Source: a virus. From it: a stretch of 26,474 bases of DNA. The notes beneath the pieces were generated by a model. That model was not told where the DNA came from, ran no database searches, and worked only from the letters and a program-made list of their open reading frames with translations. The position numbers and the translations under genes are program-made. The stretch is from positions 1 to 26,474 of IMG/VR virus record IMGVR_UViG_3300001783_000016. One strand, given 5' to 3'. Shown in pieces: positions 1,539-24,991 of this stretch; within the stretch, counting starts at the first letter, position 1, and each line of letters opens with the position of its first letter.

Positions 1539-2043
1539 TAGTCAAACCTATTCAATTGAAACCATTTCAAAACTGTTAATGCTATCCGAGCGCCGGTGTC
1601 AGCAGTTGGTGGGTGAGGGGGTGATCCCCAAACAAGGGCGTGGCCAATATGACTTGGTGAAAAGCGTGCAGGGATATGTAAAGTTTTTACGTGAGCGCGC
1701 GTTTGGCGGCGTGGCTAATACAGATCAGCATGGTGAAAAAACACGCTTGATCACAGCGCAGGCCAATATCGCTGAGATGAACGATGCCGAGTTGCGTGGT
1801 GATTTGGTGCGTGTGAGTGAGGTGCGGCGCACAATATTCACCGCTGCACGTGGTGTGCGTAATTCACTGCAAACAGTGGCCGATCGTTTGGCCGTGCCAA
1901 TTGCTGGCGAGAGTGACCACCATGAAATACACAATATTATTGAGGGCGAGTTAAACCAAATTTTAACTGATATGGATGAAGAATGGGCAAACGTAGTGGC
2001 CGAGCCGGTAGAGGATGAGCAGCAAGAAGATACCAAAGACTGA
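1531..2043 (+). CDS. terS: Terminase small subunit (Nu1-like)
   Basis: This 170-aa protein starts at GTG 1531, preceded by GAGG. Residues about 8-55 form a winged-helix type DNA-binding domain (SIETISKLLMLSERRCQQL), as in lambda Nu1, which recognises cos/pac DNA and presents it to the large subunit. The middle (about 70-110) is a charged helical region, and the C-terminus is acidic. It overlaps the large terminase by 29 bases, the usual tight coupling of terminase subunits. The position directly before a gpA-type large subunit supports the call more strongly than any single motif. Confidence 0.85.
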   Translation: MADSQTYSIETISKLLMLSERRCQQLVGEGVIPKQGRGQYDLVKSVQGYVKFLRERAFGGVANTDQHGEKTRLITAQANIAEMNDAELRGDLVRVSEVRRTIFTAARGVRNSLQTVADRLAVPIAGESDHHEIHNIIEGELNQILTDMDEEWANVVAEPVEDEQQEDTKD

Positions 2044-3985
2044 TGCTGATGGTGAGGCGTTAGTATTTAACGCAATTGCGGCCGGCCTAAAACCCGACCC
2101 CTGCGAGCCGATGAGTGAGTGGGCTGATAAATACCGCTTATTAAATCAAACTTATGCAGCCGAGCCGGGCAAATGGCGTACCAATCGCACCCCGTATTTG
2201 CGCGAGATCATGGACGCGTTTAGCCCGTCAAGCCGCACCGAGTTTGTGACCATTATGAAAGGTGCGCAGCTTGGTTTTACCGAGGCGCTAACCAATATGC
2301 TGGGTTATATTATCCACCGCGCACCAGCGCCAACCATGATGGTGCAACCAACTTTGAATTTAGCTAAACGATATAGTAAACAAAGGCTGGCCACTATGAT
2401 CCAAGACATGCCAGTTTTAAAAGGTTTGGTTGCTGACCCACGCGCAAGGGATAGCGGCAACACCACCACATCAAAAGCCTTTGATGGCGGCGTGTTATTT
2501 ATTGCCGGTGCTAATTCAGCCTCGGATTTACGCAGTGTGCCGGTGCGTTATTTGTTACTTGATGAGGTTGATGCCTACCCTTACGACTTGGACGGTGAGG
2601 GTGACCCGATTGAGTTGGCTGTTAATAGGACAAAGACCTTTGCACGGCGCAAGGTTTTAATTGGCAGCACGCCAACCGTTAAAGATGTGAGCCGTGTTGA
2701 GCGGGAATACTTAAAAGGTGATCAACGTAAATACCATGTGGCCTGCCCGCATTGTGACACCATGCAAGAACTGGTTTGGGCAAATATTAAATGGGATAAG
2801 GACGAGAATAAAGTACCAAGGCCGGAAACTGCTTTTTATGCTTGCAGCCATTGTGCAGGGGTTATTAATGAAAGCGATAAATTAGAAATATTGCAACATG
2901 GTCAGTGGGTTGCCACCAAGCCGCAGAACAATTACCGTGATACCCGCAGAAGTTACCACATATCAAGCCTTTACAGCCCGTGGGAGTCGTGGGCAAACTT
3001 AGTGCAAAAGTGGTTAGATGCACAACGTGACCCGCATCTTTTAAAGACGTTCGTTAACACTGCACTAGGAGAATGTTGGGATGACGAAGCAAATCGCGTT
3101 AACCAAGAAGATTTACAACAAAAGGCCGAGGCCTACCCACTGCGCACCGTGCCAATGGGCGGCTTATTAGTGACGGCCGGCGTTGATACGCAGGACAACC
3201 GCCTTGAGGTTGTGTTGTGGGCATACGGTAAAGACGGCCAGCAGTGGGCAATTGACTACCATGTATTTTATGGTGATCCATCCTCGCCGGCGTTATGGGA
3301 TGAGTTAGACGAGTATTTACAAAAAGAGTTGCAGCACGCCAGCGGGGAAAGTATCAAAATTAGTGCGGCCGCTATTGATACGGGTGGCCATCACACACAG
3401 CGCGTTTATGACTTTTGCCGCACTAGGCGTTACCGCCACATCATTGCCATTAAAGGCTCATCCACCCGCAATAAGCCAGTCATATCAAAACCATCTAGCG
3501 TTGATGTTACGTTTAGTGGCAAGACATTAAAAGACGGTGTGCAATTATGGCCGGTGGGTACAGATACAGCCAAAGAGGTTATTTATGGCAAGTTTAATAT
3601 TAAGACCGGCGCAGGCGCAATGCACTTTTCCAATGAGTTACCTGATGAGTTTTATGAGCAAATATCATCAGAAAAATTAATTACTAGATACCACAAAGGT
3701 TTTCCACGTAAAGAGTGGGTTAAGCCATCGCATGTGCGTAATGAGGTGCTGGATTGTAGTGTTTACAGTTTGGCTGCTGGCTACCATTTGGGCATGAACA
3801 AGTTTAGCCAACGCGATTGGCAAACTTTAGAGGACACCGTGCAACCACTAACCAAGGATTTATTTGCTGATAAAACTGAAAATATTAAGCAAATAATTGA
3901 AAGCAAACCTAAAAAACAACAGCAAAACTATCAACCAATTGCCCGCAGGAAAAAGGCCAACGCTGGTTTTGCCTCACGTTGGTAA
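2015..3985 (+). CDS. terL: Terminase large subunit, gpA family
   Basis: This 656-aa protein is a DNA-packaging ATPase and nuclease of the lambda gpA family. The N-terminal ATPase shows a Walker A-like MKGAQLGFTE (81-90) and Walker B LLLDEVD (180-186). A CPHC...CSHC pair near residues 244-285 probably binds zinc. The C-terminal nuclease has acidic motifs GVDTQDNRLEV (about 388), AAIDTGGH and RNEVLD. Length is close to lambda gpA (641). The enzyme would cut concatemeric phage DNA and drive it into proheads through the portal. The gpA type usually goes with cohesive ends, but no cos site could be identified by eye. The 3' end overlaps a convergent minus-strand gene by 12 bases. Confidence 0.96.
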   Translation: MSSKKIPKTDADGEALVFNAIAAGLKPDPCEPMSEWADKYRLLNQTYAAEPGKWRTNRTPYLREIMDAFSPSSRTEFVTIMKGAQLGFTEALTNMLGYIIHRAPAPTMMVQPTLNLAKRYSKQRLATMIQDMPVLKGLVADPRARDSGNTTTSKAFDGGVLFIAGANSASDLRSVPVRYLLLDEVDAYPYDLDGEGDPIELAVNRTKTFARRKVLIGSTPTVKDVSRVEREYLKGDQRKYHVACPHCDTMQELVWANIKWDKDENKVPRPETAFYACSHCAGVINESDKLEILQHGQWVATKPQNNYRDTRRSYHISSLYSPWESWANLVQKWLDAQRDPHLLKTFVNTALGECWDDEANRVNQEDLQQKAEAYPLRTVPMGGLLVTAGVDTQDNRLEVVLWAYGKDGQQWAIDYHVFYGDPSSPALWDELDEYLQKELQHASGESIKISAAAIDTGGHHTQRVYDFCRTRRYRHIIAIKGSSTRNKPVISKPSSVDVTFSGKTLKDGVQLWPVGTDTAKEVIYGKFNIKTGAGAMHFSNELPDEFYEQISSEKLITRYHKGFPRKEWVKPSHVRNEVLDCSVYSLAAGYHLGMNKFSQRDWQTLEDTVQPLTKDLFADKTENIKQIIESKPKKQQQNYQPIARRKKANAGFASRW

Positions 3986-4165
3986 TTTATCAAGCAGATT
4001 TTTGATTTTTTCTAGGTTGTTTTTACCCGATATATTACACCATTTTTTATAATACTTATAATCTGATGGTTTGAATGAAACCACCACGCGATTGATGTTT
4101 TTATTCCATTCGGTGGCGGTTTCTATTCTTTTTTGTTTTGACTTCTTTGATAATTTAATACTCAT
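3974..4165 (-). CDS. Small basic protein, possible ribbon-helix-helix
   Basis: This 63-aa protein is very rich in lysine. The pattern NRVVVSFKPSDYKYYKKWCN followed by NNLEKIKNLLDKL reads as a beta strand, helix, turn and helix, the layout of ribbon-helix-helix DNA-binding proteins (Arc/MetJ/CopG type); this is inference from pattern. Its ATG lies inside the end of the upstream 57-aa gene (11-base overlap), so the two are translationally coupled. Its end overlaps terL on the opposite strand. A palindrome at the promoter (4358-4369) would suit autoregulation. No enzyme motif is visible. Confidence 0.6.
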   Translation of the reverse strand: MSIKLSKKSKQKRIETATEWNKNINRVVVSFKPSDYKYYKKWCNISGKNNLEKIKNLLDKLPT

Positions 4166-4328
4166 GTTGTGATAATGGCTCTATCATTTCACCATCTAGT
4201 GTTTTGTAAAAATCCGCGATGTCATTCCAAACTGTAACATAGCCATCGCCAATAATTAGAACTTTATCACAATCATATACTGCAACCAAGTCAACCCCAC
4301 CACCCGTGTCAATTTTTTCATATTTCAT
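4155..4328 (-). CDS. Small acidic protein of unknown function
   Basis: This 57-aa protein starts at the ATG read leftward from 4328, chosen because AAGGAAAAG (complement of 4332-4340) lies just upstream. The longer frame to 4439 would add a hydrophobic stretch with no ribosome binding site and overlaps the promoter, so I reject it. The protein is strongly acidic (MKYEKIDTGGGVDL...DGEMIEPL), with predicted strands and no motif I recognise. It is first in a two-gene operon with the basic gene at 3974. The acidic/basic pairing and coupling recall toxin-antitoxin or small anti-host cassettes, but nothing in the sequence proves such a role. Confidence 0.55.
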   Translation of the reverse strand: MKYEKIDTGGGVDLVAVYDCDKVLIIGDGYVTVWNDIADFYKTLDGEMIEPLSQHEY

Positions 4329-4357
4329 TTTCTTTTCCTTTTTTATTGTTGTTATTG

Positions 4358-4387
4358 ATAGTATACTATAAAAAACCAAACAATCAA
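4358..4387 (-). promoter_or_regulatory. Promoter and palindromic operator of the minus-strand cassette
   Basis: Read on the minus strand, TTGATT (complement of 4382-4387) is followed after 16 bases by TATACT (complement of 4360-4365), a good sigma70-type promoter. The -10 lies in a perfect 12-bp palindrome, ATAGTATACTAT (4358-4369), placed where a bound repressor would block transcription. Confidence 0.5.
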
Positions 4388-4427
4388 CAACTATTTTTGA
4401 TAATAAATAATAACAATAAAATAAAGG

Positions 4428-4502
4428 TTGACATTTCAAAAAAAGTTACTAACCTAAACACTAGATATAGTGCTTTTTGCACACAACAAATACTAGATAT
4501 AG
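4428..4502 (+). promoter_or_regulatory. Candidate promoter with paired direct repeats before the connector gene
   Basis: TTGACA at 4428-4433 is a perfect -35. The best -10 is poor (TAACCT, 4450-4455, 16-base spacing). Just downstream lie two copies of ACTAGATATAG, at 4460-4470 and 4492-4502, with starts 32 bases apart (about three DNA turns). The first sits at the expected transcription start. This could restart late transcription after the inserted cassette, under control of a protein binding the repeats. Confidence 0.4.
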
Positions 4503-4509
4503 GGGTTTT

Positions 4510-5094
4510 ATGGCAAATATGTTTGATTCGGCAAACTATGCTGAAACAGAGCCAGCCAAGTTTATTGCCGGTGATCGCCTTGCGTGGAAACGCAGCAATT
4601 TAACTGACTACCCACCCGCAACTTACACACTTAAATACTCAGCCCGTTTAGAGAATAGCGGCACAACTGAGATAACAATAACAGCCAGCGGCTCAGGCAG
4701 TGAATACATCATCGAAGTGGGTCAAGGAACGACCGCGGCATATACCGCAGGGGATTATCACTGGCAGGCTTACATCGTACGCACCTCAGATAATGAGCGC
4801 GTTACCGTTGATAGTGGCATTTTTGAAGTCATAGCCAACCGTGATACGGCAACCACTGACCCACGCAGTAAAGTAAAAATTTGTTTAGATAACATTAACG
4901 CCGTACATGGCAAAAGAAGCACCAAAGATCAAGACAATTACACAATCGGTGGCCGTAGTTTAAGCCGTACACCCGTTGCTGATTTGATTTTGTTAAAAAC
5001 ATTTTATCAAAAAGAATACGACAAAGAGTTATTAGAAAAAAAGATTGAGCGCGGCCTGGGTACTAAAAGCGGCGTGCTTAAGTTTAGGTTTTAA
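4510..5094 (+). CDS. Head connector protein, Ig-like domain plus gpW-like C-terminus
   Basis: This 194-aa protein starts at ATG 4510, with AGGGG four bases upstream; the in-frame ATG at 4477 lacks a binding site and lies in the repeat region. Residues about 15-115 are beta-rich (GDRLAWKRSNLTDYPPATYT ... GIFEVI) and look Ig-like. The C-terminal part (about 125-194) is helical, with SKDQ-like and GRSLSRTPVADLILLKTFY segments resembling the gpW head-completion fold. This architecture is common in prophages between terminase and portal, where lambda has gpW, and is usually annotated as hypothetical. A role in the head-tail connector is inferred from position. Confidence 0.65.
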   Translation: MANMFDSANYAETEPAKFIAGDRLAWKRSNLTDYPPATYTLKYSARLENSGTTEITITASGSGSEYIIEVGQGTTAAYTAGDYHWQAYIVRTSDNERVTVDSGIFEVIANRDTATTDPRSKVKICLDNINAVHGKRSTKDQDNYTIGGRSLSRTPVADLILLKTFYQKEYDKELLEKKIERGLGTKSGVLKFRF

Positions 5095-15277: not shown

Positions 15278-16801
15278 ATGGCAATTACAACGAGAGCAGG
15301 AAAGGGATCAGCATTAACGCACGCCGAGATGGATGCAAATATTAACGCAATACCTGAGGTTTTAGATGAGGATAACATGGCCTCTAACTCAGCCAGCAAA
15401 GTGCCAAGTCAGCAAAGCGTTAAAGCGTACGTTGATGCAAATGCTGGCAGTGGTGGCAGTAGTGGTGTTGATTGGACGGTTGACCAAGGTGCAACCAACA
15501 TCCATGCCGGCAACTATACAGATACCAACACCACATACAGTGTGGGTGATGGTGGCCTTACTGAAAAGAACTTTACTGCTGCATTAAACACTAAATTAGG
15601 TGCTATTGAGGCCAGTGCAACCGCTGACCAAACCAATGCTGAAATTAAAACAGCGTATGAGGCCAATGCAGATACTAATGAGTTTAGTGATGCTGAACAA
15701 ACCAAGCTAAGTGGCGTGGCCACCAGTGCTAATAACTACTCATTACCAGTAGCCAGCGGCACAGTTAGCGGCGGTGTTAAAGTAGGTGCAAACCTAACCA
15801 TGACCGATGGCGTACTGGCAGCAACCGGCGGTACTGGCGGCGGTAGTGGTGTTGATTGGACGGTTGACCAAGGTGCGACCAACATCCATGCTGGCAACTA
15901 TACAGATACCAACACCACATATAGTGTGGGTGATGCTGGCCTTACTGAAAAGAACTTTACTGCTGCATTAAACACTAAATTAGATGGTGTTGCCACCAGT
16001 GCTAATAACTACTCATTACCAGTAGCCAGCGGCACAGTTAGCGGCGGTGTTAAAGTAGGTGCAAACCTAAGTATTGCCAATGGTGTTTTAGCGGCAACAG
16101 ATACCAACACCACATACAGTGTGGGTGATGGTGGGCTTACGCAGAATAATTTTACTAACGATGATCATACTAAGTTAAATGGCATTGCCACCAGTGCTAA
16201 TAATTACTCATTACCAGTAGCCAGCGGCTCAACGAGCGGTGGTGTTAAAGTAGGTGCAAACCTAAGTATTGCCAATGGTATTTTAGCGGGAACAGATACC
16301 AACACCACATACAGTGCCGGCACGGGCATCACCCTAACTGGCACAACTTTTAGCGCCTCGCCAATTGCACTAACCACAGTGCAAACAGCGGCCAATCAAG
16401 CTGCTCAATTAGCACTAACGGCACAAGAGGGTGATATTGTGGTGCGTTCAGATGAAAACAAAACCTATTGTCATAATGGTGGCAGCGCAGGCACGATGGC
16501 TGACTTTACGCTATTAGCAACACCAACAGATACAGTGTTAAGTGTCAACGGTGCAACGGGTGCGGTTACGTTAACCCATGATGGTTTTAGTGATTTTGTG
16601 GCTAATGAGCATATTGATTGGACTACTGACCAAGGTAATGGCAGTATTTACGCCGGAAACTATATCAACACCACATACAGTGTGGGTGATGGTGGGCTTA
16701 CGCAGAATAATTTTACTAACGATGATCATACTAAGTTAAATGGCATTGCCACTAGTGCTAATAATTACTCATTACCAGTAGCCAGCGGCACAGTTAGTTA
16801 A
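15278..16801 (+). CDS. Tail fibre, N-terminal and repeat part (frame broken at 16797)
   Basis: The 507 codons start MAITTRAGKGSALTHAEMDA, a common start for small fibres, followed by QQSVKAYVDA. From about residue 60 the protein is built of repeats with the units VDWTVDQGATNIHAGNYTDT, TNTTYSVGDGGLT, TKLNGIATSANNYSLPVASG and VSGGVKVGANL. These are low-complexity, Gly/Ser/Asn/Thr-rich and fit a triple-stranded fibre shaft. The frame ends at TAA 16799-16801 only because one copy lacks 8 bases compared with its sister copies; the repeat continues in another frame. The real gene probably runs to 17545. Confidence 0.85.
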   Translation: MAITTRAGKGSALTHAEMDANINAIPEVLDEDNMASNSASKVPSQQSVKAYVDANAGSGGSSGVDWTVDQGATNIHAGNYTDTNTTYSVGDGGLTEKNFTAALNTKLGAIEASATADQTNAEIKTAYEANADTNEFSDAEQTKLSGVATSANNYSLPVASGTVSGGVKVGANLTMTDGVLAATGGTGGGSGVDWTVDQGATNIHAGNYTDTNTTYSVGDAGLTEKNFTAALNTKLDGVATSANNYSLPVASGTVSGGVKVGANLSIANGVLAATDTNTTYSVGDGGLTQNNFTNDDHTKLNGIATSANNYSLPVASGSTSGGVKVGANLSIANGILAGTDTNTTYSAGTGITLTGTTFSASPIALTTVQTAANQAAQLALTAQEGDIVVRSDENKTYCHNGGSAGTMADFTLLATPTDTVLSVNGATGAVTLTHDGFSDFVANEHIDWTTDQGNGSIYAGNYINTTYSVGDGGLTQNNFTNDDHTKLNGIATSANNYSLPVASGTVS

Positions 16802-23359: not shown

Positions 23360-23906
23360 AGATTATTTAAAAACGGCAACTTTAATAACCAGCTATTTAA
23401 AAGCACGGTTTATTAGTAATAAAGCTGATATGTCAGAACGGGAAAAAAAGGTTTGGGCTGACCAGTTGGCAACCACGGTAGATGCGGATCAATTAACACA
23501 ACAGAATATAAAGGCCGCATGTGATTTGTACGCTGAGATTAATGGTAATGGTTTTCCACCAACGGTTGACCAATTTATGAAGTGTTTACGCAAGGTTAGT
23601 TTTGATAAAAGGCCGGATTTGCCTATAAATAACAAACAGTTAAATTATATGGATGAGTGGATTAACGCTAAAGATGATGCCAAATTAAGGTTTTTTATTG
23701 ACCATAATTACCTAAACACCCCGCCGGTAATCCGCTGGTTGTTTCACGACTACAACACCAAGCACCGTGGTTGGACTAAAAAAGAGTCAATCAAAATGAT
23801 GCGGTTTCATGGCCAGCCATTTAGTGGCGCAGGCCAGGGTGCAATGGTTAATCACCAGCGCGATGTTATGCAATATTTTATTAATAGAAAAGTGAAAGCG
23901 GCATGA
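23352..23906 (+). CDS. Helicase loader (lambda P-like)
   Basis: In this 184-aa protein the region KVWADQLATTVDADQLTQQN through AINGNGFPPTVDQFMKCLRK has the layout of the lambda P N-terminal domain (helical segment, then FPP/FLP-S/T-x-x-QF). The rest is charged and helical, with WLFHDYNTKHRGWTKKES. Lambda P carries host DnaB helicase to the origin-bound initiator. The position directly after the initiator gene with a short overlap supports this. Length is shorter than lambda P (233). The identity is inferred from architecture. Confidence 0.65.
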   Translation: MGKDYLKTATLITSYLKARFISNKADMSEREKKVWADQLATTVDADQLTQQNIKAACDLYAEINGNGFPPTVDQFMKCLRKVSFDKRPDLPINNKQLNYMDEWINAKDDAKLRFFIDHNYLNTPPVIRWLFHDYNTKHRGWTKKESIKMMRFHGQPFSGAGQGAMVNHQRDVMQYFINRKVKAA

Positions 23907-24991
23907 GGGTATTGAGTTTATTTGATGGAATGAGTTGCGGGCAAATTGCGCTCAATAGGTTGGGCATTAATGTTGATGAGTATTTTGCAGCTGAGATTGA
24001 TAAATACGCCATGCAAATCACTAAGAAAAATTACCCAAATACTCAGCATATTGGCAACGTGCTTGATGTTAAAGGTGAAGATTTACCAAAGATTGATTTG
24101 TTGATTGGTGGCTCGCCATGTCAGGGTTTTAGTTTTGCAGGCAAGCAACTCAATTTTGATGATCCGCGCTCTAAGTTGTTTTTTGAATTTGTGCGCTTAC
24201 TTGATGAAACAAAACCAACTTATTTTTTGCTTGAGAACGTGCGTATGAAAAAAGAATATCAAGAGATCATCAGCGAGCATTTAGGGGTTGAGCCGGTAAT
24301 GATTAATTCAACACTTGTATCGGCACAAAATAGAGTGCGACTGTATTGGACAAATATACCTGGACTAGAACAGCCGGAAGATAAGCAGCTAGTGATGAAA
24401 GATATTTTAGAGGATGGTTTTGTTGATAGGGATAAATCACATTGTTTAGATGCTAATTATTTCAAAGGCGGTAATTTAAAGTCTTATTTTGAGAAACACC
24501 GCAGGCAATTGGTTTTTTCTAAAGATGGTTTGTGCCATGTTGGTGATGCTGATTTAAAAGGTAATGATTCAATTAAGTGGGTTTATCATCAAGACGGTAA
24601 ATGCCCAACATTAACAACAATGGGCGGTGGTCATAGAGAGCCAAAGGTTTTGATTGTGCCGGAAGCCACTAAAAAAGGCTATACAGAAATCCAAGACGGT
24701 GATTGTTTCGATGCAACATTTATAACATCAAAGACAAGGCGCGGTCGTAATATGAAAGACAAATCAAATTGCTTGACGGCTGCTAATTACCAGTACATGA
24801 GATATGAACACCCAACCTATCGAAAACTAACACCATTGGAGTGCGAGCGCTTGCAAACCGTACCCGATGGATATACCGAGGGAGTATCAAACACACAGCG
24901 TTACAAAATGCTCGGTAATGGTTGGACGGTTGATGTGATAGCGCATATTTTCAATGGGTTGCAAATACAAACAATAGAGGCGGTGGCATGA
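23903..24991 (+). CDS. C5-cytosine DNA methyltransferase
   Basis: This 362-aa enzyme methylates cytosine at carbon 5. Motif I is LSLFDGMSCGQIALNRLG (4-21). Catalytic motif IV is GGSPCQGFSFAG, with Cys73. Motif VI is ENVRM (111-115), motif VIII QNRVRLYW (142-149) and motif X LGNGWTVDVIAHI. A target-recognition region of about 150 residues lies before TYRKLTPLECERLQTVPDGY (motif IX). All motifs are intact. It overlaps the P-like gene by four bases (ATGA). No restriction partner is nearby, so it is probably a solitary phage enzyme giving protection from host restriction. The target site is unknown. Confidence 0.94.
   Translation: MRVLSLFDGMSCGQIALNRLGINVDEYFAAEIDKYAMQITKKNYPNTQHIGNVLDVKGEDLPKIDLLIGGSPCQGFSFAGKQLNFDDPRSKLFFEFVRLLDETKPTYFLLENVRMKKEYQEIISEHLGVEPVMINSTLVSAQNRVRLYWTNIPGLEQPEDKQLVMKDILEDGFVDRDKSHCLDANYFKGGNLKSYFEKHRRQLVFSKDGLCHVGDADLKGNDSIKWVYHQDGKCPTLTTMGGGHREPKVLIVPEATKKGYTEIQDGDCFDATFITSKTRRGRNMKDKSNCLTAANYQYMRYEHPTYRKLTPLECERLQTVPDGYTEGVSNTQRYKMLGNGWTVDVIAHIFNGLQIQTIEAVA

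Follow-up and report, generated by a model that had tools for sequence, protein, structure and literature searches.

Downstream of the gene for the terminase large subunit (terL), a temperate marine phage carries a small inserted cassette in which a conserved terminal gene under purifying selection is preceded by cargo genes that change from carrier to carrier, the whole lying behind a conserved promoter with a palindrome over its −10 element and being exchanged between phages. Our preferred interpretation, in which our confidence is about evenly balanced, is that the cassette is a mobile accessory module with an organization of the acr–aca type, whose cargo would act against host defense and whose last gene (herein referred to as gene 2) would encode an autorepressor. 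The analyzed sequence, herein referred to as the window, comprises 26,474 nucleotides (positions 1–26,474 of IMG/VR record IMGVR_UViG_3300001783_000016), in which integrase, CI-like, and Cro-like genes identify the source phage as temperate.

Two Overlapping Minus-Strand Genes Separate terL from the Head–Tail Joining Gene

The plus-strand genes terL (2015–3985; phrog_15 terminase large subunit in PHROGs, E 1e-265) and the head–tail joining (connector) gene (4510–5094, ATG at ∼4510; phrog_5774 head–tail joining, E 4e-35) enclose two overlapping minus-strand open reading frames, as had been predicted from the sequence. Gene 1 (4155–4328) encodes an acidic cargo protein of 57 aa (pI 4.1) and gene 2 (3974–4165) a basic, ribbon-helix-helix (RHH)-like protein of 63 aa (pI 10.1) that we regard as a putative autorepressor. 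Gene 1 and gene 2 share 11 nt where the former ends and the latter begins, and the last four codons and stop codon of gene 2 overlap the 3′ end of the convergent terL on the opposite strand. The start codon of gene 1 is ATG 4328, preceded by the ribosome-binding site AAAAAAGGA, which two relatives conserve; a 94-aa reading from TTG 4439 was rejected as not credible because its start precedes the promoter of the cassette, through which the frame would run.

The AlphaFold single-sequence model of the 57-aa protein (mean pLDDT 89) combines a small beta sheet with a single helix; for this protein, BFVD holds one credible relative, an unannotated protein from an uncultured phage (30% identity, TM 0.74). 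Fold matches in the PDB (VIA-align) to the KhtT N-domain (best Z 5.0), AcrIF1 (Z 4.4–4.5), and the KTSC domain (Z 4.3) all lie at background level and are therefore discounted as evidence.

Other loci merit separate mention. A gene combining ParB-N and DNA methylase domains (182–1342) directly precedes terS in the window and is missing at the equivalent place in the relative L002, marking another accessory slot; a C-5 cytosine DNA methylase encoded within the early region (23903–24991) may protect from restriction, and a tail-fiber-like frame (15278–16801) contains internal repeats of the DWTVDQGATNIHAGNYTDTNTTYSVGD type. In the relative L001, the head protease/major head protein gene starts twice in tandem (18–1856 and 1919–2329), the second copy being broken by N, which reflects either a genuine duplication or an error of assembly.

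The Cassette Is a Precise Insertion That Moves between Phages

We gathered 43 relatives by TerL searches of viral contigs, and these bear out the claim that the cassette is an insertion. In L008 and L009 (TerL 99% identical), L037, and L012, the leader of the joining gene comes immediately after terL, and alignment to these empty sites places 435 extra bases in the window at exactly the terL/leader junction; the cassette is also missing from ∼15 further relatives. The possibility that the pair is a structural gene common to all relatives is hence contradicted, most of them lacking it. The predicted extent (3974–4439) narrows to an inserted minus-strand stretch of ∼3983–4425 (net +435 bp), whose ends are uncertain by 2–3 bases because TAA/AA is common to both. 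Few parts of the window are as AT-rich as the insert (29.5% GC vs. 42% overall), with only 0.3% of equal-length stretches having a GC content as low or lower. Absence from close relatives, a promoter of its own, and a different base composition are the features of a moron or other accessory insertion.

The cassette and its surroundings have different histories. TerL identity is 96% between the window and L002 and 90% between L001 and L002, whereas gene 2 identity is 74% and 94%, respectively, in the same comparisons; in the more divergent L003, TerL retains 42% identity to the window and gene 2 retains 64%. These conflicting relationships indicate that the cassette moves independently of terL, and exchange by recombination in the conserved flanks is the best-supported reading. 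Comparison of the joining gene (4510–5094) with that of L008 shows 99% identity over the first 80 bases and 70–80% thereafter, and this drop marks a recombination joint just past the cassette.

A Conserved Palindrome Overlies the Cassette Promoter

The cassette has a sigma70-type promoter of its own on the minus strand (4360–4387), which reads TTGATT-16-TATACT in the window and TTGACA-16-TATACT in L001 and L002, and its −10 element lies, as originally predicted, in a perfect 12-bp palindrome, ATAGTATACTAT (4358–4369), a putative operator. The palindrome is not significant by itself: the window contains 12 perfect 12-bp palindromes, and the chance of one in such an AT-rich upstream stretch is P ∼0.15. 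It carries weight because it is perfectly conserved in the three phages in which the promoter is visible (the window, L001, and L002), where it sits in a 20-base invariant block while the DNA immediately upstream varies; the promoter block TTTTTTATAGTATACTATCA is unchanged in these three carriers. Within the window ATAGTATACTAT is the sole copy even when two mismatches are allowed. As a marker of a wider family the promoter was rejected: when viral contigs were scanned for TTGA-N14-ATAGTATACTAT, 79 stretches matched, but none apart from the two carriers already known encodes gene 2.

We detected no terminator downstream of gene 2, and unchecked transcription of the cassette would thus run antisense into terL, which may provide a reason for autorepression. 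With a promoter of its own and a palindrome over the −10 element, the description of the locus as a self-contained and likely self-regulated operon is supported.

Gene 2 Is Conserved, under Purifying Selection, and Probably of the RHH Fold

Homologues of gene 2 occur at the same place and in the same orientation in three other viral contigs, at identities of 60–94% among carriers (relative to the window, ∼75% for L001 and L002 and 64% for L003), and the four known carriers are all metagenomic contigs. In all four, gene 2 closes the minus-strand operon in convergent orientation to terL, whose end it either touches or overlaps; in the window, L001, and L002, it overlaps or abuts a different upstream gene each time. 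Nei–Gojobori dN/dS values of 0.12 (L001–L002), 0.27 (window–L001), and 0.23 (window–L002) are well below 1 and hence indicate a real protein under purifying selection; synonymous sites are saturated in comparisons with L003. No further relatives were found in INPHARED phages or GTDB species genomes, and plasmids yielded nothing above chance. Pattern matches in four additional contigs (L053–L056) were rejected as chance frames.

The original prediction described the second protein as RHH-like, a description that stands in part. Against it, no Pfam RHH model (RHH_1, Arc) reaches cut-off; indeed, no library model in Pfam, PHROGs, NCBIfam, or PADLOC matches the 63-aa protein, and a PDB sequence search returned only chance matches. 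Neither was any HTH family found, whether for the 63-aa protein in Pfam, PHROGs, and NCBIfam up to E 10 or for its L003 homologue in Pfam and PHROGs. Weakly in its favor, when the four-member gene 2 profile is compared by hhalign with 30 RHH_1 members taken from genomes, 36 columns align in register (P 0.012), a score equaled or beaten by 2 of 200 column shuffles; 1 of 25 other window proteins scores equally high against RHH_1, but over 15 columns only. The register assigns NRVVVSF to the strand, PSDYKYYKKW to helix A, GKN to the turn, and LEKIKNLL to helix B. A low-confidence AlphaFold monomer (pLDDT 61) is extended over residues 25–32 and helical over 33–43 and 50–59, and Foldseek searches with this model found nothing useful. 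We consider the RHH fold likely but unproven.

Cargo Genes Differ in Every Carrier

Upstream of gene 2, the carriers encode unrelated cargo: a single 57-aa protein in the window, proteins of 82+72 and 66+80 aa in L001 and L002, and of 64+263+233+103 aa in L003. Between carriers, the nucleotide identity of the cargo is no better than that of shuffled sequence, as against 82–87% for the promoter region and 80–92% for gene 2. Searches of the cargo proteins of the four carriers against Pfam, NCBIfam, and PADLOC identified no known anti-CRISPR, anti-defense, defense, or toxin family. The 233-aa gene of L003 (1124–1822) encodes an HELMH motif and has weak metallopeptidase matches in Pfam.

The second cargo protein of L002 is a member of phrog_25600 (E 9e-19), a family label that comes without a function and has no member in the window itself. 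Relatives in the T7-like phage Lauvirus lau218 lie in the leftmost small-gene region, following an adenine methyltransferase gene and preceding the RNA polymerase gene, and those in other viral contigs adjoin DNA polymerase, primase-helicase, or DEAD-helicase genes. Such placement beside replication and early genes suits an early-acting accessory protein, from which we infer that the cargo may serve in counterdefense. The cargo could equally consist of superinfection exclusion, host-takeover, or lysogenic conversion genes. If the last of these, the cassette would be a moron expressed mainly from the prophage, the cargo protecting the lysogen through superinfection exclusion or defense against other phages and gene 2 setting its steady level. 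The phage is temperate, the cassette opposes the late genes from its own promoter and occupies one place, and phage-borne defense hotspots also typically show variable cargo at a single site; however, the placement of phrog_25600, a T7-like phage included, fits action early in infection better, and the products of the cassette are tiny, without membrane or enzyme signature and without a PADLOC match, such that we find the moron explanation unlikely, if deserving of some weight.

Regulatory and Toxin–Antitoxin Alternatives

The view that lambda-like phages have no break between terL and the connector gene requires revision, as the relatives keep a leader of roughly 80–110 bp there with conserved elements of its own, namely TTGACA and, in most, two ACTAGATATAG repeats. 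In the window (4426–4508, plus strand), the repeats are identical and 32 bp apart, the second lying near the start codon of the joining gene; they occur nowhere else in the window, and most of the relatives examined retain the leader, whether or not they carry the cassette. The leader is possibly a late-gene control element. In four more distant relatives (L033, L035, L039, and L042), the gap after terL instead holds a plus-strand Mor-type gene, and the two proteins scored, from L035 and L039, have Pfam matches to the Mor transcription activator family (E 1e-14 and 2e-15), which suggests a late activator encoded beside its own target.

The presence of Mor-family regulatory genes in this gap, and the fact that gene 2 is the conserved part of the cassette and ends inside terL, would accord with a module in which gene 2 chiefly controls the phage late genes, through the divergent leader or antisense transcription on terL, with the small genes as passengers. 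We judge this quite improbable: phages without a cassette also conserve the leader and its repeats, so that the cassette is dispensable for late control, and the palindrome occurs only in the cassette promoter. Although RHH antitoxins are common and two overlapping small genes of opposite charge with a palindrome on their promoter invite comparison with a type II toxin–antitoxin system, in which the RHH-like protein would be antitoxin and autorepressor and the acidic protein its partner, we hold such a pair very improbable because toxin and antitoxin must match, whereas here the basic protein is conserved and its partner wholly different in each carrier, gene number runs from one to four or more, Pfam gives no RelE/ParE/MazF-type match, and the acid/base contrast on which the idea was founded is lost in the other cargo proteins (pI 5.2–9.8). 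Of the two roles initially proposed, toxin–antitoxin or anti-defense, the second is hence the better reading, and the first is unsupported.

Relation to acr–aca Operons and Other Phage and Plasmid Repressors

We propose that the cassette works like an acr–aca operon, with variable cargo, a common promoter–operator, and a conserved terminal putative repressor. Operons with Aca1–Aca12 resemble it in several respects: variable small genes lead, a conserved small regulator closes the series, overlaps between genes are short, the core of the single promoter contains an inverted repeat, and the cargo differs or is missing in related phages (PMC9410906, PMC7648647). Published examples place the inverted repeat within the core promoter with the repressor gene downstream (PMC9410906). 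Gene 2 is likewise small and closes a short operon in which the preceding genes change, and an inverted repeat lies inside its core promoter, although the palindrome alone has P ∼0.15. The 12 cataloged Aca families are, however, all HTH proteins (PMC9765179), whereas the gene 2 protein has no detectable HTH and is RHH-like in appearance, and no recognized or proven acr gene precedes it among the cargo of the four carriers; for these two reasons, we do not file the cassette as acr–aca.

RHH repressors with comparable roles exist elsewhere. In p576 and other clade II plasmids of the pLS20 family, the RHH protein Reg_p576 represses establishment genes, permitting a transient burst of their expression after DNA entry, and its authors drew the parallel with phage acr operons while noting that the phage repressors are HTH proteins (PMC8708921). 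Reg_p576 differs in belonging to a Gram-positive conjugative plasmid with several operator-flanked promoters. The Arc/Mnt-type RHH repressors are likewise small basic phage proteins with a palindromic operator near a promoter, resembling the predicted strand–helix–helix layout of gene 2, but the gene 2 protein matches neither the Pfam Arc model nor Arc among PDB sequences.

Under our preferred acr–aca-like interpretation, a strong constitutive promoter would fire when phage DNA enters the cell and yield at least one small cargo protein working against the host early on, with a defense system as the most likely target. The last gene would meanwhile supply a small basic DNA-binding protein, probably of the RHH fold, that binds the palindrome over the −10 element and closes the promoter, thereby capping cargo output and halting antisense transcription into terL.

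In AcaFinder and earlier work, anti-defense genes are sought with HTH Aca genes as bait, and if a phage operon of acr–aca design has a non-HTH repressor, such searches would miss loci of this kind. Gene 2 provides bait of a new kind, and at least seven cargo proteins adjoining it in the four phages are candidates for direct testing, among which the 57-aa protein is an easy test case because it is small, has a confidently predicted fold, and has hardly any relatives. It is possible, though we would put our expectation somewhat short of even, that the cassette, carried by uncultured deep-sea phages, is the first phage counterdefense locus with an RHH rather than an HTH protein as its terminal Aca-like autorepressor, in which case gene 2 could serve as bait for new anti-defense families that are invisible to HTH-based searches.
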